Of a DNA stretch of 46,122 nt, positions 7,649 to 46,122 are shown in pieces (the first letter of the stretch is position 1; every line of letters starts with the position of its first letter). Origin of the DNA: a virus; the IMG/VR virus record IMGVR_UViG_3300034071_003006, positions 1-46,122 of that record; one strand, given 5' to 3'. The translations under genes were made by a program, and so were the position numbers. The notes beneath the pieces are model-generated. The model did no database searches. It was not told the DNA's origin and saw only the letters and a program-made list of their open reading frames with translations.

Positions 7649-8247
7649 ACAGCGATCAAAGTTGTCTGACAAAAGCCGACCGACGATCAAAACTGCGTGA
7701 GCAGAACTGACTGGACTGGCGATCAAAGTTGTCTCGGCAGAGCTGAACTGGACCAGACCGACGATCAAAGTTGTCTCGCAAAAACTGACCGACGATCAAA
7801 GTTGGGTGACCAGAGTTGACCCGACCAGACTGGACGATCAAAGTTGTCTCCCAAAAACCGAACAGCGATCAAAGTTGTCTCAGTAGAGCTGACTGGACCA
7901 GACTGAACGATCAAAGTTGGATTACAAAAGCCGCCAGACGATCAAAGTTGTCGCGGCAGAGCTGACCTGGTCCAGCGACCAAAACTGCATGACCAGAGCC
8001 GAGCCGAGCAGCGATCAAAACTGCGTGAGCAGAGCCGACTGGCGATCTAACGTTGCGTTACAAAAGCCGACCAGCGATCAAAGTTGTCTCGACAGAGTTG
8101 AACAGACCAGACTGGACGATCAAAGTTGTCTCAGTAGAGTTGACCAGACCAGACTGGACGATCAAAGTTGCGTGACCGGAGCTGACCGACGATCAAAGTT
8201 GCGTCACAAAAGCCGATGGACGATCAAAGTTGGCTGAGCAGAGTTGA
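7623..8247 (+). repeat. Repeat array A: 18 copies of a GATCAAAGTTG element
   Basis: Copies begin at 7623, 7654, 7685, 7721, 7763, 7794, 7836, 7867, 7909, 7940, 7977, 8013, 8044, 8076, 8118, 8160, 8191 and 8222. Distances are 31, 31, 36, 42, 31, 42, 31, 42, 31, 37, 36, 31, 32, 42, 42, 31 and 31. Each unit is the 11-mer, a 15-nt looser part like TCTGAGCAGAACTGA, then a spacer of 5, 10-11 or 16 nt; the long spacer resembles CTGGACCAGACTGGAC. Variants are GATCAAAACTG (7685, 8013), GACCAAAACTG (7977) and GATCTAACGTTG (8044). The array fills the gap between the convergent ends of the winged-helix gene and the portal gene. Short frames across it change register and are not genes. Confidence 0.95.
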
Positions 8248-11400: not shown

Positions 11401-11703
11401 GCGGCAGTCATTCCAGCTCAATGACTCCAGCCACAATGACTGCCGCTTCAGATGACGATAAGTCTGAGGCATCCAGACAACCACAATGACTGCCGCTTCA
11501 AATGACAGCAAGTCCGAGGCCTCTGAACGGTCATGATGCCTGCCGCTTCAAATGACAGCCAGTCTGGATCATCGGAGCAGTCGGTATGCCTGCCGCTTCA
11601 AATGACGGGAAGCTCAAGGCATCCAAACGGTCACCATGACTGCCGCTTCAAATGACAGTCTGTCTGATGCTGCTGGTCTGGAGTCCAGTCCGAGCGGCAG
11701 TCA
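11401..11703. repeat. Five-copy 50-bp tandem repeat with inverted half-copies at each end
   Basis: Copies start at 11436, 11486, 11536, 11586 and 11636, exactly 50 bp apart. The best conserved part reads ATGACTGCCGCTTCAAATGA, with ATGCC in copies 3 and 4; the other half is looser (AAGTCNGAGGCATC). GCGGCAGTCAT at 11401-11411 is the perfect reverse complement of the start of copy 1. AGCGGCAGTCA at 11693-11703 mirrors copy 5 and overlaps the terL stop. The 392-bp gap between terL and portal holds little else. The period is not a multiple of three, so it is not coding. Candidates are replication iterons, a packaging site or a binding array. Confidence 0.9.
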
Positions 11704-13227: not shown

Positions 13228-13447
13228 CGGCTGGAGCCTGGATCGGGCGATCAAAGTTGGGTGACAAAAGCTGACTGACGATCAAAGTTGCGTGACAAAA
13301 GCCGACCAGTCTGGACTGGACGATCAAAGTTGGGTGAGCAGAACTGCCTGGTCCAGACTGGACGATCAAAGTTGGGTGACAAAAACCGAAAGACGATCAA
13401 AGTTGGGTGAGCAGAACTGACCAGCGATCAAAGTTGGGTGAGCAGAA
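13123..13447 (+). repeat. Repeat array B: 9 copies of the GATCAAAGTTG element
   Basis: Copies start at 13123, 13165, 13207, 13249, 13280, 13322, 13364, 13395 and 13426, with distances 42, 42, 42, 31, 42, 42, 31 and 31. Orientation is the same as array A. It fills the gap between small and large terminase genes and continues into the 5' end of terL. Inside the possible terL coding region the spacing is always 42 bp (14 codons), so the frame stays open; outside it the 31-bp step appears. Confidence 0.95.
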
Positions 13448-15563: not shown

Positions 15564-16010
15564 ATGAATCTTCTCGACTTCACATACTCCAGCATCAAGC
15601 AGCCGACTCCGGCAGACACCCGCCTCGCTCCGTATCTGGAGGCCTTCGAGGAGGCTCTCCAGACTCGCGCAGCCAACTACCTCTATGAGAGGCCTCCGGT
15701 CATCGGTGACTTCGCTGTGGCTCGGATCGTGCCTCTCAACAGCGACTGCAGCATCCACGAGAAAGTGACTCTGACTGTCTACAATGTGGACGACGAGTCA
15801 AAGGACCTCCAGTTCGTGGTGTCCATCGAGCAGACTCTCCGAGGCCTGCAGCATGTTGTCTGGTTCGACTCTGTCAAAGTCGTTGAGCTCACCGAGTTCT
15901 CTCCGTTCAAGCACGCCCTGGATCGGGCCAACGAGTCGATACAGACTCAGATTCACAAGACCAGCATGGCGATGCGCGACTTCAAGTCTCTCTCTGCTCT
16001 CGGCTTCTGA
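15564..16010 (+). CDS. Early protein of unknown function
   Basis: A 148-aa acidic protein (MNLLDFTYSSIKQPTPADTR) with an ACAAGGACAAGCA leader. The centre alternates short strands (KVTLTVYNVDDESKDLQFVV, then LQHVVWFDSVKVVEL), which suggests a mixed alpha/beta fold. I do not recognise the family. It lies between small helical genes and the 456-aa protein. Confidence 0.65.
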   Translation: MNLLDFTYSSIKQPTPADTRLAPYLEAFEEALQTRAANYLYERPPVIGDFAVARIVPLNSDCSIHEKVTLTVYNVDDESKDLQFVVSIEQTLRGLQHVVWFDSVKVVELTEFSPFKHALDRANESIQTQIHKTSMAMRDFKSLSALGF

Positions 16011-16092
16011 GCCAATCGGCTGCGCAGGTCTAGACCTGGCGGAGAGTCACTCTCTCCAGCAGCCACTGCCCCCACAACGACAAGGACAAGAC

Positions 16093-17463
16093 ATGGTGTC
16101 TCACAACTCTCGTATCTCATCTCTCGCTTCGCTGGTCCTCGCTCCAGAGCAGACCGTCGGAGCCTCCGTCAACTGGACTCTGCCAAAGTCGCTCCGGATT
16201 GCCGAAGCAGACCTCCTCAGTACTGCACGCAAGTTCGGTCTGGACGAGGACCTGCTCGGCTCTCCGACTTCGGCTCTCGGAAAGTTCAAGACCTGGCACG
16301 CATCCGGCTCTCGGATTCCACGGCCTCGCGGCAGTCGGGAGATTGTTTCGACTACCTCCAGACACGACGACAAAGGCCTGGTCACCTTCGTCTACTCTGC
16401 CAACCTAGACGGAGTCGGCAAAGAGAAAGGCCTGCTCGCTCCAGTCGGCTCTGTGACCTTCGAGGTTGAGTCCTCCCGCTTTCGCTGGATGTTCGACTGC
16501 GGCAAGCAGCAGAGCTCGGAGACCTTCGACGAGTATGTCGATCGCGCCCTGGTCGAGAACAAGTTTGCTGGTCAACTCGAGAAAGACGACCTGCTCGTCT
16601 TTGCTCGGTTCGCTGACCAGTCTCTCAACGATGTGGCCTTGTTCCACGACACTCCGAGCTATTGCGGCGACTCCCTTCGGGTTGCAGCAGCCAGCACCTT
16701 TCGGAAACTCGGAGGCTACAGCATGAGCGACCGAGGCGGGTTTTGGTATCTGCCGCGCACAGACGGAGGACCAGCCTGCCCACTGTCCAGAGCAGAGGTG
16801 TTCATGCAGACGATCGAGGAGTCCTCCTCCGGCGTAGCTCGGTTCTCTCGTCTCACGATGCCGAAAGACGCTTCGACCCTGGAGGTCGCTGGAGGCATCG
16901 TCAGCGAAGGTCTCGCAGCTCAGATTCGAGGCCTCTCCTCCAGAGTCTCGGAGATCAAGGAGGTGACTCGGAAAGGACAGCACACGACCCGACTGGAGGA
17001 GTTGTCTGAGGTCCGGTCAAAGATTGAGCTCTACAGAGAGATGCTCGGACTGTTTGACGAGGACCTCCTGTCAGAAGCCGACGAGGTCGAGCAGATGATG
17101 CGGCAGCAGATGCTGGAGTTTGAGTCCTCCCTGCCCAGCAAGCCGAGCAAGGCAGAGCGCAAAGGCAAGGTGTTCTCGGAGCCGCTGCTGGTGACCAGCA
17201 ACAAGGCAGATGCAGCAGAGGCTGTCTACCTGGTCGACAAGGCTGCTCTCCTCTTGTCGCTGGAGGCAGAGGAGGTTCGGATTGTCTCTGGTGACTTTGT
17301 CCGGCTCCCGTTCTACGGCAATGTCGACATCGTGGTCGAGTCAGACCTGGCATTCGGATTCGTCTGGACGATGGTCAACGGGCCAGTGGTGCTCGGTGGA
17401 GGCTCGGAGGAGTCTCTGTCCGGAGTCGCTCACGCCGCAGTTGAGCTCCACGGTCGGGCCTAG
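16093..17463 (+). CDS. 456-aa early protein, unknown; upstream of ATPase/VWA genes
   Basis: Starts MVSHNSRISSLASLVLAPEQ at the ATG 16093, with ACAAGGACAAGAC before it; the open frame extends to 15784 but the leader decides the start. The N-terminal 250 residues look mixed alpha/beta, with YLPRTDGGPACPLSRAEVFM near 215-235. Residues about 260-350 are a charged coiled coil (SRVSEIKEVTRKGQHTTRLE onward). The last 90 residues are beta-rich. Its position before the MoxR-type ATPase and VWA genes makes it a possible third component of that system. No family firmly recognised. Confidence 0.65.
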   Translation: MVSHNSRISSLASLVLAPEQTVGASVNWTLPKSLRIAEADLLSTARKFGLDEDLLGSPTSALGKFKTWHASGSRIPRPRGSREIVSTTSRHDDKGLVTFVYSANLDGVGKEKGLLAPVGSVTFEVESSRFRWMFDCGKQQSSETFDEYVDRALVENKFAGQLEKDDLLVFARFADQSLNDVALFHDTPSYCGDSLRVAAASTFRKLGGYSMSDRGGFWYLPRTDGGPACPLSRAEVFMQTIEESSSGVARFSRLTMPKDASTLEVAGGIVSEGLAAQIRGLSSRVSEIKEVTRKGQHTTRLEELSEVRSKIELYREMLGLFDEDLLSEADEVEQMMRQQMLEFESSLPSKPSKAERKGKVFSEPLLVTSNKADAAEAVYLVDKAALLLSLEAEEVRIVSGDFVRLPFYGNVDIVVESDLAFGFVWTMVNGPVVLGGGSEESLSGVAHAAVELHGRA

Positions 17464-17464
17464 C

Positions 17465-17539
17465 AAAAGAATACCGTCACAACTTTCTTAGTCCAGTTTG
17501 AGGACTGGAGCAGCAACGATAGCAAATAAGCCAAGTTGC
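17465..17539. repeat. Paired elements X' and Y', inverted copies of 14470-14533
   Basis: AAAAGAATACCG at 17465-17476 is the exact inverse of element X. The 26 bp at 17514-17539 is the inverse of element Y with two mismatches. Between them lies a 6-bp stem (TCCAGT 17492, ACTGGA 17504). The elements precede the second early gene block. Confidence 0.85.
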
Positions 17540-17565
17540 CGCTCACTTATCTTCATACACAAGAC

Positions 17566-17594
17566 TGGACTTGTCTAGCAAGTGTGGTTACTAT
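17566..17594 (+). promoter_or_regulatory. Candidate early promoter
   Basis: TGGACT (17566-17571), a 17-bp spacer and TACTAT (17589-17594), about 50 bp before the next ATG (17642). The -35 box is weak. Position and spacing match the promoter at 14562. Confidence 0.35.
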
Positions 17595-17641
17595 GTCAAG
17601 GTCAGAGAGGACTGGTCCTCTCACCTACCTGGAGAAAGCAG

Positions 17642-17923
17642 ATGAACAAGCAAGACCTCAACAGAGCAATCAACCAGACTGGCCGCACGCTTGTGGCTTG
17701 GGCAGAGATCGAAGCGGCTCGCAAAGCAGTCCGGTCTGTTTCGGTTAGCCGATTCAATCTGGTTCAGTCCGGACTCACGGAAGGCGAAGCAGACTACATT
17801 CTCAGCAGCCTCCAGTCGATCGAGAACTTGCTGCAGGACGCAGCGAACAAGGCCAGCGAGAAGCAGGGAGACGCACACCACAAACTGCTCAACATGGTCG
17901 ATGCCTTCTGCGCCAACAACTAG
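17642..17923 (+). CDS. Small early protein, unknown
   Basis: A 93-aa protein (MNKQDLNRAINQTGRTLVAW) that looks almost entirely helical, with no membrane segment. It is one of the few early genes lacking the ACAAGGACA leader: the sequence before the ATG is GGAGAAAGCAG. It begins a new transcription block after the X'/Y' elements. Confidence 0.65.
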   Translation: MNKQDLNRAINQTGRTLVAWAEIEAARKAVRSVSVSRFNLVQSGLTEGEADYILSSLQSIENLLQDAANKASEKQGDAHHKLLNMVDAFCANN

Positions 17924-17959
17924 TCCAGACCTCTCCTCCAGTCTCAACAAGGACACCAG

Positions 17960-18154
17960 ATGCACCCTGAAGACCTCAAAATCATGACTCTCATTGACCT
18001 GGCGGTTGCTCACTTCGCCTCTGCTTTCAAGCCGAACTACGACGAGATTGCAGCCTTCGTAGAGGACCAGAACAGCAAGGCCTTTCACCTGCCCTACTCT
18101 CTGGAGCTCGGAGTCGCCCAGCGGGTGTATCTCCGGACTCGGCCGAACAACTAG
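17960..18154 (+). CDS. Small early protein, unknown
   Basis: A 64-aa protein (MHPEDLKIMTLIDLAVAHFA) with an ACAAGGACACCAG leader. Helical N-terminal half, shorter strands near the end. No known domain. Expressed from the operon starting at 17566 if that promoter is real. Confidence 0.6.
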   Translation: MHPEDLKIMTLIDLAVAHFASAFKPNYDEIAAFVEDQNSKAFHLPYSLELGVAQRVYLRTRPNN

Positions 18155-18184
18155 CCTCTCCTCCTCCAGCACAAGGACAAGACC

Positions 18185-18433
18185 ATGAACACCTCAGCAA
18201 CAGTCACCGCCTATGAACTGCGCTGCGAGCCAGAGACTCTCCTCCGCGCAATCGAGACTCAGTGCGAAATCCTGCTGGACTCCGGTCGCTGCTTCGCCAC
18301 CGCAGTCACTTATCCGTTCAAGGACGAGCCGACGCGGATTGACCGCCTCACTACCTCGCTCCTGCTGGAGGTTGAGTCAGAGACTCTCACGGCAGAGCAG
18401 GCCCTCGACCTCGCTCTCGAAGCGTACCTGTAA
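18185..18433 (+). CDS. Small early protein, unknown
   Basis: An 82-aa acidic protein (MNTSATVTAYELRCEPETLL) with a full ACAAGGACAAGACC leader. Three Cys residues are spread through the first half (RCEPE, ETQCE, GRCFA); this is not a clear metal site. The C-terminal end is helical. Last of the small genes before the ATPase. Confidence 0.6.
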   Translation: MNTSATVTAYELRCEPETLLRAIETQCEILLDSGRCFATAVTYPFKDEPTRIDRLTTSLLLEVESETLTAEQALDLALEAYL

Positions 18434-18539
18434 CAAGGCAATCGCCTGGTCTCCAGCTCGGAGCGCAGCGAGGTTCAAGCCCTTGCGGAGACACTCCCAC
18501 AAACGGCCTGCATTGAGGCCAAGAACAAGGACAAGACAG

Positions 18540-19787
18540 ATGGACACCAGAGACAAGTTCAAGGCAGCAGAGCAGGACCTCCGGACTCACTTCAGAAAGC
18601 GAGACTCGGTCATCCGAGGCCTCTTCATCTCTGTCCTGGCGAGGCAGCACGCTGTCATCATCGGAGAGCCTGGAGACGGCAAGACGAAGCTCAGCACAGA
18701 CTTCTTTCGACTCTTCACCGACTCGCAGTTCGCGCACTTCGGACTCCACAAAGGTTCGACCTCAGATGACCTGTTCGGAGGTCCAGACATTGTGGCGCTC
18801 CAGAACGGCATCGACAAGAGAAACACCAAGGGCCGTTTGCTGGAGGTCAACTTCGCGTTGCTGGACGAGCCAGACAAGGCCTCAGAAGGCACGCTGAACT
18901 CGCTGCTGGTCCCTCTCTCTGACTTCGTATTCGAGACTGCTCCTCTGCCTCTGCAGTGCGCCGTCTACTGCGGCAACAACCTTCCGCATGAGCTCAGAGG
19001 TCAACGCAACGGCAAGCCTCTCCCTGTCCGGCAGGGCGAGGATTCTCTGCTCGCTTTCTTTGACCGCTTTGCTCTCAAGTTCGTGGTCGAGTCGATCGAG
19101 CCTGGCAACGAGGACTGGAGGTCGGTAGTGTTCCGGCGAATCACAGACACTCCGTACACCTCCAGTCTCTCCCTGGACGACCTTGCCAATGCGAGGGAGC
19201 AGGTGGCGAAGGTCCACATTCCGGAGTCGGTAGAGCAGTTCATCGAGGAGTTTGCTGGAGTCCTCCGCAGAGGCAACGGCAAGCCGAACTCCACAGTCAA
19301 GGTTTCGACTCGGCGTTGGGCCCAAGTGCCTGGTCTGCTCCGCGCAGCCGCTTGGCTCGAAGGTCGCGACGAGGTCTCGACGCAAGACACCTCGCTTCTC
19401 GTTGACATACTCTGGACGACTCCAGACCAGCGAAAGGCAATCCGAGAGGCTCTGCTCGATTGTGGCTCTCCGATCGTGAGAGACTGTGCAGCCACGATCG
19501 ACAAGGTAGCAGAGGCAGTTCTCGCTCTCAGTGAGAGGAGGCTCTCGACTGGAGCCGGAGCAGACGGCTACCACATTCACACCACGGCTGCAGAGGTCAA
19601 CCCGCGCCTGGCAGTCGGAGTCGCAGAGGTTCTGCTCCGCTTCATCGACAAGACTGGAGGTGACCTCCGCAACGCGATCACTCCAGACCTCTCTGCAGAC
19701 GACCTTGCAGCAGTCGAGGACTCTCTCCAGACTCTGCGCAACTTCCGAAAGCAGGTCCTCGAGGAGTTCCGAAAGCGTATCGCTTGA
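18540..19787 (+). CDS. MoxR-type AAA+ ATPase
   Basis: A 415-aa AAA+ ATPase of the MoxR/RavA type. Walker A is GEPGDGKT (residues 42-49), Walker B is ALLDEPDK (about 106-113), and the segment between them has the FGLHKGSTSDDLFGGPDI look of MoxR proteins. A sensor-like YCGNNLP follows. The C-terminal half (about 260-415) is helical with VKVSTRRWAQVPGLLRAAAW, the usual lid. MoxR ATPases remodel or load metal or protein partners, usually with a VWA protein encoded next door, as here (19843). ATG at 18540 after ACAAGGACAAGACAG. The target in the phage is unknown. Confidence 0.85.
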   Translation: MDTRDKFKAAEQDLRTHFRKRDSVIRGLFISVLARQHAVIIGEPGDGKTKLSTDFFRLFTDSQFAHFGLHKGSTSDDLFGGPDIVALQNGIDKRNTKGRLLEVNFALLDEPDKASEGTLNSLLVPLSDFVFETAPLPLQCAVYCGNNLPHELRGQRNGKPLPVRQGEDSLLAFFDRFALKFVVESIEPGNEDWRSVVFRRITDTPYTSSLSLDDLANAREQVAKVHIPESVEQFIEEFAGVLRRGNGKPNSTVKVSTRRWAQVPGLLRAAAWLEGRDEVSTQDTSLLVDILWTTPDQRKAIREALLDCGSPIVRDCAATIDKVAEAVLALSERRLSTGAGADGYHIHTTAAEVNPRLAVGVAEVLLRFIDKTGGDLRNAITPDLSADDLAAVEDSLQTLRNFRKQVLEEFRKRIA

Positions 19788-19790
19788 TTC

Positions 19791-19819
19791 TTTACAGGCT
19801 AGCGAACTTCGTCTAGTGT
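19791..19819 (+). promoter_or_regulatory. Promoter before VWA gene
   Basis: TTTACA (19791-19796), a 17-bp spacer and TAGTGT (19814-19819), between the ATPase stop (19787) and the VWA ATG (19843). It resembles the promoter at 14562 (TTTACT, 17 bp, TAGTAT). It would give VWA extra expression independent of the ATPase. Confidence 0.45.
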
Positions 19820-19842
19820 CGCCATTCCCAACATAGGACACC

Positions 19843-21411
19843 ATGAACAGGCTCTCAACACGCAGTCTCCGACTCCACCTGGAGGCATTTCACCGGAACA
19901 GATACGACCGGATTCGGTCGCAGTTTCCCGCTCTCCTCCAGATCGAGGAGGAGCTCGGACAGCGACTCGGAGATGCTGGAGGCTATCTTTCGAGAGACCT
20001 CTGGTCGTCATTCATTGACTCCAGTCTGCAAACTGTGGAGTCCAGCAGCGACTTTGCCGAGCCTCTCCAGAGGCTGAGCCGTTTCATCTTCGAGAGCCTG
20101 GAGAGCAGCGACGAGTTCAACACTCTCCGAGACCTCTCCAAAGGTTCGACCTTCGCTGCAATCGAGGCTACAGAGGCTGCTGCTGCTTTCATCAAGTCTC
20201 TCCCTTTGCCGGAGCCTCCGGAGGAGAGAGACACCACGACAGCCACTGGAGAGAACGGAGACTCGGTCTCTGTCTCCCAAGACGGCAGTTCGGTGAAGGT
20301 CGAGCAGACCAAAGGTGGTGTTCGGATGGACACCACGAAGCAGTTTGACTCAGAGAGCCAAGCGGCAGAGTTTGCGGCAAAGGTCCTCCAGCAAGCAGAG
20401 AGTCGAGGCCTGGACAAGAGGACCTCCGGACAGCGAGACCTCAAGTTCGAACAGGCTCTGTCCGAGGCTCTGGACAGCATCGAGAGCTCACCGACTGACA
20501 AGGCCTCTCTCAAGGCTGCAGCCAAAGCAGCAGTTCGGGCCACAGCAGCAAGCCTGGAGGAGCGAAAGCAGTTGCTGGTCACCACATTCGGAGAGGACGA
20601 GGCAGAGCGCATCTTTGAGGACCCGTCCAGAGAGGACCTTGAACTTGTGGAGTCTCTCTCCAGCGATCAGACCTTCAAGGCATTCATTCGGCAGGTCGGC
20701 CGCTTTCTGGAGTCGATTCGCTCGGCTTCGCTGCCAGAGAAAGTGCGCGGCTCTCTGGCGGTAGACGGCATCCAGAGCTCAAAGCGATTCTCAAACCTCC
20801 TGCCTTCCGAGAGAGTCCTGCTAGCGACTCCGGCTCTTCGAGCATACCAGACGAGTCGAGTGCTCTCCGGCAAGGCCTTCGGCTACCGCAGGAGCGAGGT
20901 CGGGAGTCGCCAGAGCGGGGAGTTCATGGTCGCCCTGGACACCAGTCACTCAATGAGCATCCACAATCGGAACTGGCCTGCTCCTGCAGCCTTCGCAGCA
21001 GCAAGCGCAATCTCTGCTTGCGACGAAGGCAGGACAGTCTGTGTTGCTGCTTTCTCGACTCACATCGAGGAGGTCGAGTTCGATGGACAGTCCGCGACTG
21101 GTCGGGCCTCGTTCCTGCGCAGGATGCTTTCTCTCCGGCCAAGTGGCGGCACAAGTTTCCGACCAGTCGTAGAGCGTGCAGACATTCTGTCTCCCTTCTC
21201 AGACCTGCTCATCATTTCAGACGGTGACGGACCTCTGGACGAGGAGAGGACTCGCGAGGTGTTCTCCAGTCGCTCGCTCGCCTACCTGGTCATCGGAGGA
21301 GAGAGTCAGCGCAATCAGACTCTGGCTGACATAGCGACTCCAGACAGAACACTCGTAGCAGACTCCCTCACTCCGGAGGCTGTCAATCTTGTAGCCTCCC
21401 TCACTCGATAG
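19843..21411 (+). CDS. VWA-domain partner of MoxR-type ATPase
   Basis: A 522-aa protein. The C-terminal 165 residues form a von Willebrand factor A domain with a complete metal-ion-dependent adhesion site: DTSHS (366-370), the Thr in GGTS (about 437) and the Asp in SDGDG (about 460). Residues 1-340 are helical and acidic, with a Gln/Glu/Ser-rich linker near 145-190. This is the layout of ViaA/CobT-like proteins that couple to MoxR ATPases; the N-terminal part probably contacts the ATPase. ATG after CATAGGACACC. Phages rarely carry this pair. Function in the phage life cycle is unknown. Confidence 0.85.
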   Translation: MNRLSTRSLRLHLEAFHRNRYDRIRSQFPALLQIEEELGQRLGDAGGYLSRDLWSSFIDSSLQTVESSSDFAEPLQRLSRFIFESLESSDEFNTLRDLSKGSTFAAIEATEAAAAFIKSLPLPEPPEERDTTTATGENGDSVSVSQDGSSVKVEQTKGGVRMDTTKQFDSESQAAEFAAKVLQQAESRGLDKRTSGQRDLKFEQALSEALDSIESSPTDKASLKAAAKAAVRATAASLEERKQLLVTTFGEDEAERIFEDPSREDLELVESLSSDQTFKAFIRQVGRFLESIRSASLPEKVRGSLAVDGIQSSKRFSNLLPSERVLLATPALRAYQTSRVLSGKAFGYRRSEVGSRQSGEFMVALDTSHSMSIHNRNWPAPAAFAAASAISACDEGRTVCVAAFSTHIEEVEFDGQSATGRASFLRRMLSLRPSGGTSFRPVVERADILSPFSDLLIISDGDGPLDEERTREVFSSRSLAYLVIGGESQRNQTLADIATPDRTLVADSLTPEAVNLVASLTR

Positions 21412-27218: not shown

Positions 27219-27388
27219 TGCCGATGGACATACAGACAGACGAACTGGAGGCTACCGAGTCAGACAGTTGGCAGCGACTGGCAATCTTGCTCGCCTCCAG
27301 ACTTGCGATCCGAACAGACCTGGACGATTCAGATTTGGGAGTCCTGCGCGACTTCTTTGTTGAGCTCCTGCAGAGGAGGACGCCATGA
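27215..27388 (+). CDS. Short protein between primase-helicase and C5 methyltransferase
   Basis: A 57-aa acidic helical protein (MMPMDIQTDELEATESDSWQ, ending ELLQRRTP). Its ATG overlaps the primase-helicase stop and its TGA overlaps the ATG of the methyltransferase (27385). An ACAAGGAGGACGA site precedes it. Function unknown. Confidence 0.65.
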   Translation: MMPMDIQTDELEATESDSWQRLAILLASRLAIRTDLDDSDLGVLRDFFVELLQRRTP

Positions 27389-28425
27389 GATACCTGTCTG
27401 TCTGCTCTGGCATCGAAGCGGCTTCCGTGGCCTGGAGAGGTCTTGACTGGACTCCAGTCGGAGTGTCAGAGATTGACCCGTTCGCCTGTGCTGTGCTGCA
27501 GCACCGTTTCCCTGCCGTTCAGAACTTCGGAGACCTAACCCGCCATGAGCAATGGACACTCAAGCCTGGAGCAGTTGACCTTCTTGTTGGAGGAACACCC
27601 TGCCAATCTTTCTCCGTTGCTGGTCTCCGAGCTGGAATGGCTGACCCGCGTGGCAACCTCGCTCTCACATTCTTGGCTCTCGCCGACAGACTTCGGCCGG
27701 AGTGGATTGTTTGGGAGAATGTTGCCGGAGTCCTGTCTTCGAACGGAGGACGGGACTTTGGTGCCTTTCTCGGCGCGCTGGGCAAACTCGGGTACGGGTT
27801 CGCCTACCGAGTGCTCGACGCACAATACTTCGGAGTCGCCCAGCGTCGTCGTCGAGTCTTTGTTGTCGCAAACGCTAGAGACTGGAGTCGTGCCGCCGCG
27901 GTTCTTTTTGAGCCCGAGAGCCTGCAACGGCATCCTCAGAAGAGCTCAGCAAAGGGACAAGGCTCTGCCTCCAGCACTGCACCGAGCTCTGACACAAGTT
28001 GTTTCTGGAACGGAGAGCAGGTGACGCAGACTCTCGATGCGGTCCTTGCAAAGAGACAGACAATGCCAGAGCGCAACCGCTTCCCTGCAGTTCTTGTTCC
28101 TCCTGTTGTGATTGACAGAGCAGCCTTCAATCAGGGAGTCGGGGCGCAATACGCACCTCGCATCGAAGCAAGCGAGACGATGAGTTCGCTTGTGGCTCGC
28201 GACCCTCACGCAGTTTCGGCTCCTCCTTCGTTTGCTGTTAGACGACTCACTCCAGTCGAGTGCGAGCGGCTGCAAGGATTCCCCGACGACTGGACCTCAG
28301 TGCCGCATCGTGGCAAGCCAGCAGCAGACGGACCCCGCTACAAGGCGATCGGCAACAGCATGGCTGTTCCGGTCATGCGGTGGATCGGAGAGCGCATCGC
28401 TGCTGTGGACGAGGTCACGCGATGA
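27385..28425 (+). CDS. DNA (cytosine-5) methyltransferase
   Basis: A 346-aa enzyme with the motifs of C5-cytosine methyltransferases in order: FxGxG-like SVCSGIEAAS near the N-terminus, PCQS with catalytic C73, ENV at 111-113, QRRRR at 153-157, and GNSMAV near the end. It moves a methyl group from SAM to C5 of cytosine. The target site cannot be read. The variable region before motif IX is about 110 residues. It may protect phage DNA or prepare cytosine for further modification (see glycosyltransferase cassette at 32.4-35.1 kb). Overlaps the neighbours by ATGA. Confidence 0.9.
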   Translation: MRYLSVCSGIEAASVAWRGLDWTPVGVSEIDPFACAVLQHRFPAVQNFGDLTRHEQWTLKPGAVDLLVGGTPCQSFSVAGLRAGMADPRGNLALTFLALADRLRPEWIVWENVAGVLSSNGGRDFGAFLGALGKLGYGFAYRVLDAQYFGVAQRRRRVFVVANARDWSRAAAVLFEPESLQRHPQKSSAKGQGSASSTAPSSDTSCFWNGEQVTQTLDAVLAKRQTMPERNRFPAVLVPPVVIDRAAFNQGVGAQYAPRIEASETMSSLVARDPHAVSAPPSFAVRRLTPVECERLQGFPDDWTSVPHRGKPAADGPRYKAIGNSMAVPVMRWIGERIAAVDEVTR

Positions 28426-28754
28426 CCTGGACAGAGCGCAAGATGACCATCGTCACTCGGACTGGACAGACTCTCACTCGGTCTCTGTTCCTGCAGACTC
28501 CAGTCGGAGAGCCTTCCGAGAGACTGGTCGTTGTTACAATCTCTCTCGGCTCTTGGCTGGAAACGGACTCCAGCCCGATCTCGTTCGAGACGGCAATCTT
28601 TGAGACAGACGAGACTCAACAGCCTATCTGGTTCGTCACAGTCGCAGAACGATACAGAACTGCCAGAGAGGCATTCGACGGCCACAATCGCTGGTGCCAG
28701 ATGCTTGACCAGCCTAGACAGATCAACAGGAAACAACAGGAGGACTCAGAATGA
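28422..28754 (+). CDS. Small protein between methyltransferase and PAPS-reductase genes
   Basis: A 110-aa protein that overlaps the methyltransferase stop by 4 bp (ATGA) and the next gene the same way. Mostly beta in the first 70 residues (TLTRSLFLQTPVGEP, RLVVVTISLG) and helical toward the end. An in-frame ATG lies seven codons later. Not recognised; co-translated with its neighbours. Confidence 0.6.
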   Translation: MTWTERKMTIVTRTGQTLTRSLFLQTPVGEPSERLVVVTISLGSWLETDSSPISFETAIFETDETQQPIWFVTVAERYRTAREAFDGHNRWCQMLDQPRQINRKQQEDSE

Positions 28755-29713
28755 ACGAAGTGAACTTCATCAATGTCAGTGGCGGCAAGGACTCAACAGC
28801 AGTCCTGCTTCTTGCTCTGGAAATGCAGCCTCCGAACATGCGCTTCGTGTTTGCAGACACGGGACACGAACACCCAGAGGTGTATCGGTATCTCGACTAC
28901 CTGGAACGAGAGCTCGGAGTCTCGATTGAAAGGCTGAGGAACGACTTTACAGACCGTCTTGCTCGACGGCGCAAGCGCATCGAAGAGACTTGGGAGGAGC
29001 CGGAGAGGTCCAGAGCATTGGAGGTCATGCACGCTACGGGCAACCCGTTTCTGGACCTTTGCTTGTGGAAAGGCATCTTTCCGTCAAACAGCATCCGTAT
29101 CTGCACACAGTTCTTGAAAGTTGAACCGATCAACAAAGTGCAGAACGAGGCTCTCGACAAAGCAGACAGGGTCGTGACCTGGCTTGGAATCAGAAAGGAC
29201 GAGAGTGCTTCGAGGTCCACGGCTGTGACTTGGGAGCGAGAGTTCGGTCCGGAGGACCAGCCCGATGCAGGTCTGTGGAAATACAGGCCAATACTTGACT
29301 GGACTGCTGCCGATGTGTTCGACTTCATCCACAAGAAAGGCCTCCAGTCAAACCCGCTTTACAGACAAGGCATGGGACGAGTCGGCTGCATGCCCTGCAT
29401 CATGGCAAGGAAATCAGAGATTGCAGAGATTGCGAACCGCTTTCCAGACGAGATCGACAGAGTCGAGCGTTGGGAGGCAATCGTCAACCAGAGCATTAGG
29501 AAGCAGAACGGCACCTTCATTGCCGCTAGCAGGTTCGGCTATGACAATCCGGACGACATAACATCTGCAACTCACGGAATCCGCAAAGCAGTGGAATGGG
29601 CGAAGACAAGCCGTGGAGGACGACAGTTCGGTCTGGACTTCGAAAGCGGTGGAGGTTGCTCCAGCATCTACGGTCTTTGCGAGACTGGAGACAACAAGGA
29701 GGACTCGGAATGA
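28751..29713 (+). CDS. PAPS-reductase/ATP-pyrophosphatase-family protein
   Basis: A 320-aa protein with a PP-loop (SGGKDS, residues 10-15) and a following FADTGHEHPE. The central part has IRICTQFLK and later GCMPCIMARK. This is the phosphoadenosine-phosphosulfate reductase family, which also includes DndC and tRNA thiolation enzymes. It may handle sulfur or adenylate DNA or RNA groups. It sits between a C5 methyltransferase and recombination genes. The phage homologues are common, but their substrate is unknown. Confidence 0.8.
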   Translation: MNEVNFINVSGGKDSTAVLLLALEMQPPNMRFVFADTGHEHPEVYRYLDYLERELGVSIERLRNDFTDRLARRRKRIEETWEEPERSRALEVMHATGNPFLDLCLWKGIFPSNSIRICTQFLKVEPINKVQNEALDKADRVVTWLGIRKDESASRSTAVTWEREFGPEDQPDAGLWKYRPILDWTAADVFDFIHKKGLQSNPLYRQGMGRVGCMPCIMARKSEIAEIANRFPDEIDRVERWEAIVNQSIRKQNGTFIAASRFGYDNPDDITSATHGIRKAVEWAKTSRGGRQFGLDFESGGGCSSIYGLCETGDNKEDSE

Positions 29714-30602: not shown

Positions 30603-30873
30603 TCGGCTACAATCGTTGCTGCGGTCGGGCTGTGGGAAGCTCGGTTCTGGAAACGGAGAGGTCGCTCCTCGTGCTGTCCTTCGGGGAGCGACCTTCGCAC
30701 CTCTGGCAGTTGTCTTTCAGAAGAGCCTCCAGCCGCAGCCAACGAGCGACACTGCCCTGGCAATCTTCATACTGCTGTTCTTTGCCTATGTGGCAACGGT
30801 GCTGGTCGTTGAGTGGCTGAGACCTCCAGACAAGCAGACAGAGCCGGACAAGGACCAGAGGAGCAGCAAGTGA
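30589..30873 (+). CDS. Small membrane protein
   Basis: A 94-aa protein (MPEHNRLQSLLRSGCGKLGS) that overlaps the resolvase gene by 14 bp. A single membrane segment is clear (TALAIFILLFFAYVATVLVV), followed by a polar tail (RPPDKQTEPDKDQRSSK). Likely anchored in the inner membrane. Function unknown. Confidence 0.6.
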   Translation: MPEHNRLQSLLRSGCGKLGSGNGEVAPRAVLRGATFAPLAVVFQKSLQPQPTSDTALAIFILLFFAYVATVLVVEWLRPPDKQTEPDKDQRSSK

Positions 30874-31412
30874 CGGCTTATGTTGGCAGCAGAGTGATCG
30901 GAGGAGACAAGGATTGCTGGTCAACTCCGGAGTGGCTGATTGAATGGACGAAAGCAGAACTCGGCTGGAGTCAGTTCGACTTCGACCCTTGCGCGGCTCC
31001 GGACACAGCGAAGGCCTCCGACTACATTTCAGAAGAGACTGGAGACGGCCTCTCGCTGCCCTGGAGAGGACCAAGAGTGTGGATGAACCCGCCTTTCAGC
31101 AGGCAGAAGCGGTGGCTGTTCAAGGCCTCAAGAGAGTCCAGAGAGAACGGGATCAAGATTGCTGCTCTTGTCTTGCCTGCCTTCGATGCTGCCTATTGGC
31201 GACCAGCAGTTTGGGAGTCTGCGGCTGAGCTCTGGATGCTTGAAGGTCGTATCCCGTTCGAGCGAAACGGAGTGCCAGCATACAACTCGACCAGCAAATC
31301 ATGCATTGTGGTCTTTGACCAAGACCGCGCAAAAACGGCCCAAAATGAGCCGGTGACCCGTTTCCTGCGACCTCCCTACCCGCCACGCCTGGAGAGGCCT
31401 GTATGCCGCTAA
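30870..31412 (+). CDS. Phage DNA N6-adenine methyltransferase (Dam type)
   Basis: A 180-aa protein starting at a GTG overlapping the previous stop (GTGA). The pattern matches phage DNA N-6-adenine methyltransferases: DCWSTPEWLIEW, then FDFDPCAAPDTAKASDYIS, LSLPWRGPRVWMNPPFS. The catalytic NPPF motif is at residues 73-76. It methylates adenine in DNA. The target is not shown, but such Dam proteins often act on GATC. The GATC-bearing arrays of this phage are an interesting potential target. Confidence 0.85.
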   Translation: MTAYVGSRVIGGDKDCWSTPEWLIEWTKAELGWSQFDFDPCAAPDTAKASDYISEETGDGLSLPWRGPRVWMNPPFSRQKRWLFKASRESRENGIKIAALVLPAFDAAYWRPAVWESAAELWMLEGRIPFERNGVPAYNSTSKSCIVVFDQDRAKTAQNEPVTRFLRPPYPPRLERPVCR

Positions 31413-32245: not shown

Positions 32246-32371
32246 GTCAGTTCTGCTCAGACGACTTTGATCGCTGGTCACCTCTGGTCACGCAACTTTG
32301 ATCGTCTGTCGGCTTTTGCGAGACAACTTTGATCGTCTGTCGGCTTTTGCGAGACAACTTTGATCGTCTGT
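32246..32371 (-). repeat. Repeat array C: 4 copies of the GATCAAAGTTG element, inverted
   Basis: The element appears here in the opposite orientation to arrays A and B (CAACTTTGATC on plus). GATC positions are 32269, 32300, 32331 and 32362, all 31 bp apart. The last two units are identical over 31 bp, so one is a recent duplication. The array fills the gap between convergent genes (32231 and 32387). Confidence 0.95.
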
Positions 32372-32386: not shown

Positions 32387-33265
32387 CTAGGTCGCCAGTC
32401 CAGAGGCAGCGCGGTCGGGCTTACGGTACTGCTCCCGCACAATCTTGACCGCGGTGCTGTTCCACTTGATCCGGTGATGAATGCGCGGAGAGGCAGGCCC
32501 CATCGGCTTGATTGTGACTGAGCTCGGGCAGTGCATGATGCTGTACATCGACTTCACATAGGTGCCCTGGTCTCTGTAAATCTCGCTCATACCTCCAGCC
32601 TGCATCTGCGTGGTGAGCTGGCCAAGCCAAGTGCGACCCACGGTCAAGAACACCTCTCCGCGCCGACCTCCGAGGCAGTACGACGAGACATCCTCATTGA
32701 TTCGGCCACGGAAGGCGAAAGGCCTGTCCACGGAGCAAAGGAACGAGTTCATCGCCTTGCGCTTCGTGCGGTTCTCCAGCCCAAAGTATGAGAGAGGACC
32801 TCCAATGTGGTCACCTCCCTGCGACATGGCGAGAGTCAGAGCCGGAGTCCTCTCGTAGAAAGCAATCAGTGCGTCGAGGACTCGGTTGAGGTTTCGATAC
32901 GGCCAATAGCCGTAGTGACCAGCAGCATTGATACGGAAGCCCATGCCGTTGTAGTCGTCGTCCAACTGCATGAAATAGCGACAGCCGACCTGCCTGGCGA
33001 GGTCCCAACAGGCATTCCGAGCGTAGAAGATAGTCCGGCGATCGCTAAAGTTGTCTGCCTCGTCAAAACGCTTGGCGATCTCAGACTTCGAGAAGATCAG
33101 AACCTGGTCTCCGTAGAGCTCAAGATACCGCTCCCTGCTGGAGTCCTCGTCGTCAATGACGATGTAGAGCCGTCCAGTGTAGCCCGTTCGCTTCAGCAGT
33201 TTGTAGGTCCAGAGCCTGTCGGGTCTGCCGTGAGTCAGAATGAACATACAGAAATCGTCACGCAT
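32387..33265 (-). CDS. Glycosyltransferase, TAGT-like GT-A fold
   Basis: A 292-aa protein beginning MRDDFCMFILTHGRPDRLWT. It has YIVIDDEDSS, then FDEADNFSDRRTIFYARNAC and a DxD-type metal site (LDDDYNG, about 101-107), matching GT-A glycosyltransferases described with TET/JBP enzymes in phages (TAGT). These add sugars to modified DNA bases. The ATG at 33265 overlaps the ParB-like gene end. Together with the ParB-like and SAM methyltransferase genes it forms a three-gene minus-strand cassette. The sugar and target base are unknown. Confidence 0.65.
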   Translation of the reverse strand: MRDDFCMFILTHGRPDRLWTYKLLKRTGYTGRLYIVIDDEDSSRERYLELYGDQVLIFSKSEIAKRFDEADNFSDRRTIFYARNACWDLARQVGCRYFMQLDDDYNGMGFRINAAGHYGYWPYRNLNRVLDALIAFYERTPALTLAMSQGGDHIGGPLSYFGLENRTKRKAMNSFLCSVDRPFAFRGRINEDVSSYCLGGRRGEVFLTVGRTWLGQLTTQMQAGGMSEIYRDQGTYVKSMYSIMHCPSSVTIKPMGPASPRIHHRIKWNSTAVKIVREQYRKPDRAASGLAT

Positions 33266-34202
33266 TGAGCTCCTCCTCGTCCTCGCTGTAGTCTTCGGAC
33301 TGGAGGCCCGAAGCATCGTCCTCCGCCATAACAACATCGAAATCCTTGTGGAGTGTGATGAATCCTTGCTCTACTGCCTGGTCAAAGTCGATAATGACCA
33401 GCACTGAGGCCTCGAACAGACGCTGGACCTCCGGCGCGGCGTGAGCGTAGAACTCAGCAATCTTGGCGAAGTGAAACTCAGTGTGCCGCTCTGCTGCTTT
33501 CTCAAGAAAGCGAGTGACCTCTGGCGGCAGGTTCGCAGCCTGGATCGCCTCGACCAGCCTCAATGCCTTCGAGTCGTCGTAGAGCTCGGAGACCTCTGGC
33601 TGCTCTCCGGTGATCTCGTAGATCGGAGCCACAATCTTCCGAGTGTAATCTCCGTAGACGACACGCTCTCTGTCGCCGCTCTCTCCAGTCTTGTCTGCAG
33701 AGTCCTCCAGCGAGAACGAGTCAAGAAAGTTTGAGACTCCAGTTCCGAGGTTCATTCCAGAGAGGACTCGAGAGGCCTCCTCGTCGGTAAAGCCTGCGAG
33801 ACCGAGGTCGAAGTCGTCCTCCTTGAGTGCTTTCAACTCCTCGGCAAGCAGAGCCTCGTCCCAGCCTGCTCCGAGCGACAACTTGTTGTCGGCAAGGACA
33901 TAGGCTCGGCGCTTTGACTCCGACCAGCCCGACACATCGATGACTGGCACTGCTCCAGACGGGATCGTGTCGCCACTCGGCAGCCGGAGGACCTCTCCTC
34001 TTGAATACAAGAGGCGAGCCGCTGCAAGTCGACCATGTCCAGCAACAACACCCTTGTCGTCTGCGAGGATCGGGTTTGTCCAGCCCCATTCGAGGATCGA
34101 TGCTGCCAGTTGAGAGACCTGGTCGGCTGAGTGAGTCCGAGCGTTTCTGGAATACGGCACCAACTGGTCGATGCCTCGGAATACTGCCTTGAACTTGTCC
34201 AT
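33258..34202 (-). CDS. ParB/sulfiredoxin-like nuclease-fold protein
   Basis: A 314-aa protein. Residues about 1-100 are the ParB N-terminal fold: LVPYSRNARTHSADQVSQLA, then WGWTNPILADDKGVVAGHGR (the GHGR box), LAAARLL and VPVIDVSGWSESKRRAYVLA. Residues about 165-300 form a second domain (YTRKIVAPIYEITGEQPEVS, LYDDSKALRLVEAI, AAERHTEFHFAKIAEFYAHA) often found on such phage proteins beside glycosyltransferases. Not a true ParB partition protein, since there is no ParA. ACAAGGACAATC before the ATG at 34202. Probably part of DNA modification. Confidence 0.75.
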   Translation of the reverse strand: MDKFKAVFRGIDQLVPYSRNARTHSADQVSQLAASILEWGWTNPILADDKGVVAGHGRLAAARLLYSRGEVLRLPSGDTIPSGAVPVIDVSGWSESKRRAYVLADNKLSLGAGWDEALLAEELKALKEDDFDLGLAGFTDEEASRVLSGMNLGTGVSNFLDSFSLEDSADKTGESGDRERVVYGDYTRKIVAPIYEITGEQPEVSELYDDSKALRLVEAIQAANLPPEVTRFLEKAAERHTEFHFAKIAEFYAHAAPEVQRLFEASVLVIIDFDQAVEQGFITLHKDFDVVMAEDDASGLQSEDYSEDEEELNA

Positions 34203-34237
34203 GATTGTCCTTGTTGTGCTGGAGGAGCGGGGAGCCG

Positions 34238-35080
34238 TTAGCCTTCGGAGAGGTCCCAAACGGCAGGGCGATTGTTCCAGAGGTTCGTTGACAACTTCTT
34301 GTAGCCTGCGGCCCGTAGAACTTGCCCGAACACCCTGGAGGTTGTCCGGCCGTCCACAAGTTGACCCTCGACTCGGTAGAGGTCGAAGTGACCAGTCGAC
34401 TTGGCGGTGAAAGCGTTTGCGACAATCAGCCGCTTCGGCTGGAGGTCTCGGAGGACCTCTCGCAGATGGTCAATCGGAGCCTCGAAATGCTCAAAATATT
34501 CGGAGGCAAACACAAGGTCTGTCGGACCCTTGATTGCAGAGGAGTCTGCGACCATTCGGAAGCCGTAGACTGCTCCGAGGCTTGTGGCGATCTTGGTCTG
34601 GACCGTGTCGGGAAGGTTGGTTCCGAACACAACAGACTGAGGGAACAACTCGACCAGAGCAGCCGTGGTGATGCCGATGCCGCAGCCGAGGTCCACAATC
34701 TTTGCTCCAGCCTGGAGTCGGCCGGCAATCCCGTAAGGCGGCAGAGCCTTCGGCTTCTTGAACTCCAGCACATACGACCGACTGTAGAACGACCAGCAAG
34801 CCCAAAGCTCAGCGAGATACTCTGGCTCGCCATAGACGGCATAGTCTGGAGGTCCAGCCTTCAAGGCATCGTACCAACGGAGCTGCAAGGCCTCCAGAGT
34901 CTGAGAGACTGATCGCTGCTTCTTGGGATTCGCCAAGTGCAGCAGAGTCTGCTTGGCAATCAGAGCGAGGTCTCTGCCGTTCTGGACTCCGTTTGCTTCG
35001 AGAATGTGGTAGAAATAGCGGAGACCGAGATCGCCACTGAGCTCCACAAGAGGCACTGGTGCTCGTTGAACCTGCGTCAT
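34238..35080 (-). CDS. SAM-dependent methyltransferase
   Basis: A 280-aa class I methyltransferase. Motif I is KIVDLGCGIG (about 127-136), with acidic motif II and an EYFEHFE box later, where an LVFASEYFEHFE strand ends. The N-terminal 110 residues are helical. It precedes the ParB-like and glycosyltransferase genes in the same direction. The substrate could be a base, sugar or protein. ATG at 35080 after AAAAGGACGAACA. Confidence 0.7.
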   Translation of the reverse strand: MTQVQRAPVPLVELSGDLGLRYFYHILEANGVQNGRDLALIAKQTLLHLANPKKQRSVSQTLEALQLRWYDALKAGPPDYAVYGEPEYLAELWACWSFYSRSYVLEFKKPKALPPYGIAGRLQAGAKIVDLGCGIGITTAALVELFPQSVVFGTNLPDTVQTKIATSLGAVYGFRMVADSSAIKGPTDLVFASEYFEHFEAPIDHLREVLRDLQPKRLIVANAFTAKSTGHFDLYRVEGQLVDGRTTSRVFGQVLRAAGYKKLSTNLWNNRPAVWDLSEG

Positions 35081-35193: not shown

Positions 35194-35512
35194 TCAGCTC
35201 GGCTCAGACAACTTTGATCGCTGCTCAGTTCTGCTCACGCAGTTTTGATCGTAAGTCCGGTCGAGCTCGGTTCTGGTCACGCAACTTTGATCGCTGCTCG
35301 GCTTTTGTCACGCAACTTTGATCGTGAGTCTGGACGAACTCAGTTCTGCTCACGCAGGTTTGATCGCTGGACTGGTCGAGGTCGGCTTTTGTCACGCAAC
35401 TTTGATCGTCCATCGGCTTTTGCAAGACAACTTTGATCGTCCAGTCTGGTCGAGGTCAGTTCTGCTCATGCAGTTTTGATCGCTGGTCAGTTTTGCTCAG
35501 CCAACTTTGATC
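35194..35512 (-). repeat. Repeat array D: 9 copies of the GATCAAAGTTG element, inverted
   Basis: CAACTTTGATC on the plus strand. GATC positions are 35216, 35247, 35289, 35320, 35362, 35404, 35435, 35478 and 35509; distances are 31, 42, 31, 42, 42, 31, 43 and 31. Variants CAGTTTTGATC (35247, 35478) and CAGGTTTGATC (35362) are the same kind as in array A. Between it and 35638 I saw no other clear element. Confidence 0.95.
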
Positions 35513-35638
35513 GCTGGACTGGTCGGCCCTGGTCCAGACAGGTCGTCGCGCTGCAGTGAGCGTAACCTTCACCCTCCAAAAAGAGGAGGAGCGCAGCACG
35601 ACGACCGCAGACTGTCTAGCGGGTTGCCCCTGCTGCCG

Positions 35639-43916: not shown

Positions 43917-46100
43917 TCAGACTCCAGAGCCGCCGCGAGCAGCGACAAAGTTGAGACGCGATTGCATCGTGCGGATTGAGGCCGCATCGTTGGTCACGAT
44001 TGTAACAGGAGACCTGCCGCCTTCAAAGTAGCCGTATGACGACTCGGGCCTGGCAACAGCTGTGGTCGCTGCCGCAGACTGCTGGACTCCGCTCGCTCCA
44101 GTGGTGCCAGTGTCGGTTGACGAGTCTCCTCCAGACATAAAGCCGGACAGAGCCTTGAGGCCGATACCAGCAGCGAGCAGTCCTGCTCCAGCCACGGGAT
44201 CGAGGAACATAAGACCGATGCCCTGCTTCAAGAACAGGTCGCCCCACTGTCCAGCGATCTGGCCGACCAGAGCCTCCATCGTCGAGCCGAGAGCATCTCC
44301 GAAATCGTCTCCAGATTTTGCAGCCTGGCCGAGTGTCGTGCCGATTGCGCTGAGAGCGTCCTGCATGTTCTGCAGTCCGAGTTGCTCGGAAGCGTCTCCG
44401 AATTGTTTCCACTGCTTTGCAATGTCTTTCGCCAACTTCTCTTCGGCATCTTTCTTGGCCTGCCGAGCAGCCTCCTCGATAGCAGCCTTGGCTGCTGCGA
44501 TAGCCTCAGCTGCCTTTCGTTCCTCCTCCAGTCGGAAGCCGAGGTTCTCGGCCTCGACTGTGCTGAGGTCCCAAGTCATGTCCTCAATTTTGTCAAACTC
44601 GGACTGACGCATCTCCAGATACTCGACCGAGAAATCGCCCGTCATCTCTTGAGCTTTGAGTCCAGCCTCGTATTGCTCCTTGGTGATCTTGGCGTAACCT
44701 TCCGAAATCTCCTGCACATACAGGAGTTCGTCGGTCACCGGCTTTGGGCCTCCGGTCCTCGGAGTCGTGACTGGAGTCGACGTAGGAGGATTCGCCGCCA
44801 AGTAGGCAAGTTCTGCCGCCTTCTGAGCATAGTTCTCTCGGATGGTGAGCAAATCATTGTTCTTCTGCTTCTCCTCCTCTGTGAGAGCAGCGGCATCCTG
44901 ATAGGCTTGAGCTCTGGCAGCATTCGATGAAACGCGAACCTGCGCCTGGAACGATGCATCTGCATTCAGCAGTTCAATCGCTCGTTCTCTGTACGACATC
45001 ATTGCAACGCGACGCGACGACTCTGGACTCTTGACGTCCTGCATCGCTTGAAACATTTTGTGTTGTATTCCGGCCTCTGTCTCTGTTGCCAGAGCACGCG
45101 ACGCGGCTAGGTCGGCAGCAGCATTTGCTCGAAACTGTCTTGCCTCGTCATTGTTCATGAGCTGAGCATCGATGCTCGCCAGTCCAGCCTGGTATGACTC
45201 TGCTGCTGACTGCTGCTTTGACTTGACTACATCACCGAGTGTCTCCAGCAGTTCTTTGTAGGACTTGTCCTCCTCTCGCGCTGCAGCGGCAGAAGCATAC
45301 ATTGCGGCAGCGTATTTGCCTTCCATTTCGATGTTGATCTTCTGCTGGTCACTCAAGGCAACTGAGCCGTCAACCAGAGTCCAGAGGCCTTCGGTGAACA
45401 GTCGGATCGGAGAGAACAGCGACTCTACAACAGTCTTCGTTCCTCCCAATAACAGGTTCATTCGCTTGGCGTTCTCATTGAGGTCGTTGCCTCCGAGAAC
45501 TGCAGCTGCGAACTCTCCCTGGATCGCATTCATCTGAGTCTCGACTCCCTCCCAAACCTTCATTCCCTCTGGCCCGTAGGACCGGAACAACTTCTCGGAG
45601 GAACCGAGGAACATTTCGGCACCTTTCTGGACTCCAGCGAAAGCGATACCCGCTCCGCCAAGAGCCTTGATGAATCCTCCTCCTCCGATACCAGAGACTA
45701 CGTTGCCAGCGGCTGTGTCGGCGTCGGCAGCAACCTCTCGGAGCATGTCGCTGAACTTCTTGCCTTCGACTGCCGCTCCAGACATTTTGCCGGCGGCTGA
45801 GCTGGCGGATGCGCCAACGCCCAAGATCGGAGTCTTGGCAGATGCAGCCTCCTTGCCGACCTGCGCTGCTGCAGCGGCAAACTCTTCGGCTGCTCCGGCT
45901 CCGTTTGAAAACAACTCCTCTGCTTTCTTGGCAGAGACAGAGGCTGAGTCCAGCCCTTCACCTGCCTCGGCAGAGGCCTCTGCCACTCCCTTCTGTGCCT
46001 CCTCCAGCGACTGTGCTGCTTTCGCTACTCTGGCGAGACCTTGTTCTGCATCTGTGGTCTCTGCTCTCGCTTCGACAATGAGCTCCTCTTTGATTGCCAT
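43917..46100 (-). CDS. Tail tape-measure protein
   Basis: A 727-aa protein, helical over its N-terminal 170 residues with Ala/Glu/Lys heptads (AEQGLARVAKAAQSLEEAQK). A hydrophobic segment follows (GIGGGGFIKALGGAGIAFAG, near 140-160), then long coiled-coil segments. The C-terminal third has a hydrophobic stretch (LGLMFLDPVAGAGLLAAGIG, near 640-670). This layout is usual for tape-measure proteins that set tail length. At about 1.5 angstrom per residue it would give a tail near 110 nm. The ATG at 46100 also lies in the terminal overlap, at 105. Confidence 0.8.
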   Translation of the reverse strand: MAIKEELIVEARAETTDAEQGLARVAKAAQSLEEAQKGVAEASAEAGEGLDSASVSAKKAEELFSNGAGAAEEFAAAAAQVGKEAASAKTPILGVGASASSAAGKMSGAAVEGKKFSDMLREVAADADTAAGNVVSGIGGGGFIKALGGAGIAFAGVQKGAEMFLGSSEKLFRSYGPEGMKVWEGVETQMNAIQGEFAAAVLGGNDLNENAKRMNLLLGGTKTVVESLFSPIRLFTEGLWTLVDGSVALSDQQKINIEMEGKYAAAMYASAAAAREEDKSYKELLETLGDVVKSKQQSAAESYQAGLASIDAQLMNNDEARQFRANAAADLAASRALATETEAGIQHKMFQAMQDVKSPESSRRVAMMSYRERAIELLNADASFQAQVRVSSNAARAQAYQDAAALTEEEKQKNNDLLTIRENYAQKAAELAYLAANPPTSTPVTTPRTGGPKPVTDELLYVQEISEGYAKITKEQYEAGLKAQEMTGDFSVEYLEMRQSEFDKIEDMTWDLSTVEAENLGFRLEEERKAAEAIAAAKAAIEEAARQAKKDAEEKLAKDIAKQWKQFGDASEQLGLQNMQDALSAIGTTLGQAAKSGDDFGDALGSTMEALVGQIAGQWGDLFLKQGIGLMFLDPVAGAGLLAAGIGLKALSGFMSGGDSSTDTGTTGASGVQQSAAATTAVARPESSYGYFEGGRSPVTIVTNDAASIRTMQSRLNFVAARGGSGV

Positions 46101-46122
46101 TGTTACCTCTCGTTGCGCTGCG
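45996..46122. repeat. Terminal redundancy, right copy
   Basis: Exact repeat of bases 1-127. See the left copy. After circularisation the genome is about 45,995 bp. Confidence 0.95.

Follow-up and report, generated by a model that had tools for sequence, protein, structure and literature searches.

A TAGT glycosyltransferase paired with a conserved small domain in a phage cassette without a recognisable TET oxygenase

TAGT glycosyltransferases are named after their association with TET, and a hydroxylated base is assumed to be needed by these enzymes. The TAGT idea itself reportedly originated in prediction work from 2013. The TAGT of phage T6 uses glucosylated hydroxymethylcytosine (hmC) DNA as its substrate (PMC13216743, PMC13390438). 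According to the former paper (NAR 2026), 288 of 753 glycosyltransferase-bearing phage genomes carry a solitary TAGT, that is, TAGT without an alpha- or beta-GT, and the solitary TAGT is on this account already a published open question. The diversity of phage ParB folds has also been published (PMC12704722). Here, we describe a cassette in which TAGT is preceded by a ParB-like protein and a methyltransferase, and compare it with related loci from phages and bacteria.

The cassette and its genome

The window, which is the whole 46,122-nt stretch of viral DNA analysed here, carries the cassette on the minus strand at 32387-35080 as three genes transcribed in the order MT, ParB-like and TAGT. 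An earlier note on this DNA had proposed a TAGT-type glycosyltransferase, a ParB-like partner and a methyltransferase at this place, and matches in Pfam and PHROGs confirmed all three. The first gene, MT (34238-35080), encodes a class I SAM-dependent methyltransferase of 280 amino acids, assigned by Methyltransf_23 and Methyltransf_11 matches and a motif check. The ParB-like open-reading frame (33258-34202) matches phrog_620 (2.6e-50) as well as phrog_498, and its stop overlaps the ATG start of TAGT (32387-33265) by 8 bp (ATGCGTGA) with an AGGAGG upstream, an arrangement that suggests translational coupling. The first 127 bases of the window recur without mismatch at its end (45996-46122), which points to a probably complete genome in which the missing TET is no effect of a contig edge. 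On the circular map, the cassette is the final unit of a leftward late block that runs through terminase, head, tail and lysis genes.

TAGT, 292 amino acids in length, matches Pfam PF20691 with 97.3 bits against a cut-off of 27.5 (1.5e-27) and phrog_842 at 4.5e-73. Its AF2 model has a pLDDT of 92 and, when compared to solved structures with Foldseek, matches GT-A enzymes with E-values down to 3.6e-6, so that TAGT is confidently predicted to be a GT-A enzyme. The DDD motif is intact, with D102 and D103 invariant. Among its nearest solved folds, many belong to glycosyltransferases that act on proteins (ColGalT1, SunS, glycogenin), a likeness at the level of fold only.

A repeat search found 33 near-exact copies of the 12-mer CGATCAAAGTTG, where 0.28 would be expected. 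They form four arrays, largely between genes, at 7622-8232, 13122-13436, 32262-32366 and 35209-35513, with spacings of 31, 42, 73 and 115 bp that are multiples of the helical turn. The last two, both on the minus strand, flank the cassette, downstream and upstream, respectively. The arrays occur elsewhere only in the near-identical contig L229, and a role in the general TAGT system was rejected on this ground. In the sister phage L086, where gene order is alike, an unrelated array of ~82-bp repeats (L086:5561-5889) occupies the equivalent intergenic spot upstream of MT. Elsewhere in the window, the interval separating portal and terminase contains four to five tandem copies of a 50-bp repeat (11432-11685). 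A protein of 559 amino acids that neither Pfam nor PHROG matches is encoded upstream of genes for a MoxR-type AAA ATPase and a vWA protein (15784-21411), and a Dam-type methyltransferase lies at 30813-31412.

The partner domain of TAGT

The ParB-like protein falls into two separate halves by tblastn. Only residues 1-155 align with the ParB modules that phage N6/N4 DNA methyltransferases carry (phrog_498), and this ParB/sulfiredoxin-fold domain (33738..34181) carries the ParB-CTPase box II, GxxR, as GHGR; the form G[HNQ]xR is present in 145 of 170 ParB-TPD proteins. Residues 188-294 alone match a small protein encoded upstream of TAGT in Vibrio phages. In Vibrio phage pv27, this protein (P0001, 139 amino acids) consists of the second half standing alone, without ParB and directly upstream of TAGT. 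In a comparison of 44 diverse relatives, conservation is far higher in a C-terminal domain of ~105 amino acids (33324..33653), which we name TPD, than in the ParB part.

A search with TPD only, blind to TAGT, of bacterial genomes and viral contigs yielded 122 TPD genes, 119 of which have TAGT directly downstream. In two of the other three, TAGT lies slightly further downstream (L106 and L200), and in the third it has been lost (L185). About 10% of the 122 genes lack the ParB part. Conversely, a single lineage (L091/L092) is truly without TPD among 211 TAGT loci, as the others seemingly without it are cut at a contig end or have no detected start, and no natural TPD-TAGT fusion occurs among the loci examined. 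The constant partner of TAGT is thus TPD and not, as had been supposed, ParB, and as judged from these genomes the pairing is obligate. The same result bears on the ParB annotation which, with the repeat arrays on both sides of the cassette, might point to a true partition or inheritance module carrying the glycosyltransferase as an unrelated passenger. We consider this highly improbable and reject the protein as a ParB of a ParABS system: the ParB domain is dispensable while the TPD-TAGT pairing holds, the C-terminus is TPD, the ORFs scanned with Pfam gave no HTH or ParA match, and the arrays are missing from relatives and different in the sister phage.

TPD matches no Pfam or NCBIfam model, and its predicted fold has no match among solved structures. 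Good matches were limited to two viral models (44-50% identity), which look like members of its own family. Weak matches to repeat proteins and adhesins from a PDB sequence profile were unsupported by structure and were set aside. In the single-chain model, TPD is a small helical domain with ends of low confidence, in which many of its invariant residues fall, as would be expected if the ends fold on TAGT. The domain has invariant tyrosines (Y3, Y12 and Y69), with a T or S beside Y3 in nearly all sequences, and conserved polar residues (R56, H57, E81 and D89). Since TPD is as constant as TAGT, has these polar residues, and there is no other conserved candidate, it could itself make the acceptor in place of TET, either as a small hydroxylase that has gone unrecognised or as another kind of domain that activates bases. 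This is improbable given its ~105 amino acids and predicted helical structure, with low-confidence ends and unlike any solved enzyme fold, the lack of a recognisable metal or cofactor motif, and the presence of TAGT without TPD in L091/L092.

Oxidation routes and accessory genes

Profile searches of the whole 46,122-nt record gave no match to TET/JBP, to 2OG-FeII_Oxy_3, AlkB-type 2OG or PhyH, to thymidylate synthase/hydroxymethylase (PF00303), or to radical SAM. The earlier note had reported no recognisable TET/JBP and had proposed an HMM scan for 2OG oxygenases; the scan, covering TET/JBP and three other 2OG families, bears out that report in a probably complete genome. A sweep of the window for HxD...H...R motifs gave 27 matches of the kind expected by chance. 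A TET hidden in the window was rejected after the profile searches for TET and for the five other families, which cover oxygenases, hydroxymethylase and radical SAM. The dCMP hydroxymethylase typical of T-even phages likewise gave no match in the window. Of the TET/JBP-TAGT pathway the window holds, besides TAGT, a C5-cytosine methyltransferase (27385-28425, plus strand; PF00145, 1.5e-56). This gene had been noted at 27385 before, correctly, and had been considered together with the cassette, to which it is not linked: it lies 4 kb away on the opposite strand, and of 45 related TAGT records only 4 have a PF00145 match. Next to it, at 28751-29713, is a PAPS-reductase/DndC-like gene (PF01507; TIGR03183 at 2e-11, below the cut-off).

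The lack of TET, earlier taken as an oddity of this phage, is instead the norm for this TAGT clade, with TET matches in none of 95 TAGT records (50 + 45) and hundreds of phages carrying the TPD-TAGT pair without a TET oxygenase. As a positive control, the TET model matched mycobacteriophage Nigel (phage protein P0003, 4.3e-6), although this true phage TET scores below the curated cut-off, so that a very divergent TET could escape the model. The Nigel protein in question, gp2 (L221:776-1744), is annotated as a queuine tRNA-ribosyltransferase yet has a Tet_JBP match with an HRD motif. Thymidylate-synthase-family genes (PF00303) were found in 3 of the 45 related records; many of these records are fragments, so this count and that for PF00145 are lower bounds. 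Together, the two counts make 5mC oxidation unlikely as a general route.

For the window itself, a classical route could still be drawn, in which 5mC made by the C5-methyltransferase is converted to 5hmC by an oxygenase that is unrecognised or comes from the host, and TAGT glycosylates the product. The methyltransferase is present, the family was named for its TET association, and a divergent oxygenase might evade HMMs, as the score of the Nigel TET illustrates. We nevertheless regard this route as improbable, given a probably complete genome in which neither TET nor another 2OG or radical-SAM family gave a match, relatives in which TET was absent and the C5-methyltransferase scarce, and a methyltransferase outside the operon. 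Between the two options left by the earlier note, oxidation by an unrecognised protein and a different route to the sugar, the different route fits best. This TAGT clade persists without a recognised means to hydroxylate a base, and the pair either decorates DNA via a new route or acts on something else.

MT matches Methyltransf_23 with 30.5 bits against a cut-off of 27 and is of the small-molecule O-methyltransferase type. The DPPY/PC motif of DNA methyltransferases is absent and annotated phage records gave no match, and the idea that MT is a DNA methyltransferase was rejected. MT at first looked like a chance neighbour, since just one of the first 80 TAGT loci had it, but homologues in other TAGT operons overturned this view. 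These are arranged as MT-TPD-TAGT (L112), TPD-MT-TAGT (L106), ParB-MT-TAGT (L091/L092) and MT-TAGT (L094), the two proteins are fused in a TAGT::MT chain of 572 amino acids in L200, and in L087 MT adjoins a second, different TAGT subfamily. The sister phage L086 has MT and ParB-TPD at the equivalent place, behind tail and lysis genes. The recurrence of MT beside or fused to TAGT argues that it is part of the TAGT system.

Related operons carry further genes, profiled for one or two members per group and otherwise grouped by BLAST. These include a His_Phos+CTP_transf_like insert between TPD and TAGT, UDP-galactopyranose mutase (GLF, 1.3e-72) in L117 and L134, an epimerase (2.6e-56) in L027 and L030, an RGP-like glycosyltransferase in L048, L062 and L063, and radical SAM in L111, L116, L121 and L124; about ten loci have a second TAGT in tandem. 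These additions point to sugar chemistry. The insert is a His-phosphatase fused to a cytidylyltransferase and overlapping its neighbours, as at L071:834-1790 and also in L065, L073 and L076. A single run at L089:2670-8123 holds ParB, radical SAM (SPASM), a split TAGT-like glycosyltransferase, a TerS-like protein, MT and TerL, the TAGT-like and TerS assignments having been made by reading and not by profile; this run may represent a way to a base carrying a sugar through radical SAM.

Proposed mechanism and comparison with known systems

The TPD-TAGT pair stands shortly before terminase and portal genes in Rac-type E. coli prophages, Lactobacillus phi jlb1, Nocardia NTR1 and HHTV-2, with TerL no more than 3.5 kb downstream in at least 44 of 105 loci. 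In Nigel, the layout is ParB-X-terS-terL, and X is TET where TAGT stands elsewhere. Position near lysis and terminase genes, together with the Nigel layout, leads us to infer late action on DNA, before packaging.

The reading we favour, at a probability of roughly 55%, is that of a late, ParB-tethered, two-component TPD-TAGT glycosyltransferase which would glycosylate phage DNA, with MT acting afterwards and no TET needed. TAGT would be the catalytic GT-A subunit, with TPD as an obligate partner that has no catalytic role, while the ParB domain ahead of TPD would tether both to DNA. The sugar would be added to phage DNA after replication and just before packaging, and MT might then methylate the sugar or the decorated base. 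Neither TET nor a phage-made hydroxymethyl base would be required, the acceptor being perhaps an unmodified base position or a product of TPD and TAGT themselves. We know of no precedent for direct glycosylation of an unmodified DNA base. The sugar-nucleotide genes of sister operons support the sugar-transfer part of this proposal.

Phage DNA would be the most likely target because the ParB module is common to N6/N4 DNA methyltransferases (PMC12704722), the equivalent slot is held by TET in Nigel, and the characterised PF20691 member, that of T6, acts on DNA (PMC13216743). These points weigh against transfer of the sugar to protein, be it capsid, tail, terminase protein, or the ParB-TPD protein on its invariant tyrosines, with TPD as acceptor or substrate adaptor. 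We hold protein glycosylation to be unlikely, but it deserves attention: a small protein as obligate partner, the conserved tyrosines of TPD with the adjacent T/S, the best fold matches to SunS and glycogenin, and the head and packaging genes nearby would all suit it, and sugar-nucleotide genes are compatible with any acceptor. Should DNA be the target, the TPD-TAGT pair would produce sugar-bearing DNA in a new way, which would matter for restriction, CRISPR and defences that depend on modification. More tentatively, ParB-TPD/TAGT may be a widespread system for attaching a sugar to a DNA base that no known enzyme has first oxidised or hydroxymethylated, with TPD as a new obligate subunit and MT, sugar-nucleotide and radical-SAM genes diversifying the product.

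Compared with described systems, the cassette shares with the beta-glucosyl-HMC-alpha-glucosyltransferase of T6/T2 a phage-encoded PF20691 enzyme of GT-A fold. In T6, however, a dCMP-hydroxymethylase adjoins TAGT, there is no TPD nearby, and the profile of the cassette's clade gives no match to the T6 enzyme, which is thus too distant for its substrate to be transferred by homology. The T6 record used (L227, MH550421) has an in-frame TAG within the matched part of the TAGT frame. In mycobacteriophage Nigel (gp1-gp2), a ParB-like gene overlaps that of a modification enzyme directly before terS-terL, as the ParB-like gene overlaps TAGT here, but the enzyme is a Tet_JBP oxygenase, the ParB has no TPD and the genome has no TAGT. 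The earlier statement that ParB-like proteins are known next to TET is thus borne out in one phage, with a ParB that lacks the domain paired with TAGT. The ParB-N6/N4 methyltransferase fusions of phages (phrog_498) have the N-terminal ParB module in common with the cassette and couple it to a DNA-modifying enzyme, differing in that the methyltransferase is in the same chain and TPD is absent.

The solitary TAGT phages of PMC13216743 have, as here, TAGT without an alpha- or beta-GT, and the TAGT passages of that paper make no mention of TPD, ParB pairing, MT or donor genes. In the open-access literature searched, no description came up of TPD, of the TPD-TAGT pairing or of the added MT, donor and radical-SAM genes. 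A close counterpart is YnaK with the downstream 'hypothetical protein' of Rac-type E. coli prophages, whose full-length copies are ParB-TPD and TAGT with 41% and 59% identity, respectively, to the cassette proteins; unlike the cassette, this pair has no MT and adjoins terminase. In MG1655, ynaK of the Rac prophage (L223) is an 87-amino-acid remnant of a ParB-TPD gene, and no TPD or TAGT match is left. Elsewhere, the DNA of the pair is covered to at least 80% in 887 of 5,426 complete E. coli genomes (~16%), and this abundance, with the obligate TPD and the recurring add-on genes, turns the solitary-TAGT question into a simple two-gene test. If TAGT does act on an unoxidised base, a new base modification would be directly accessible, as roughly every sixth complete E. 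coli genome has the full pair.
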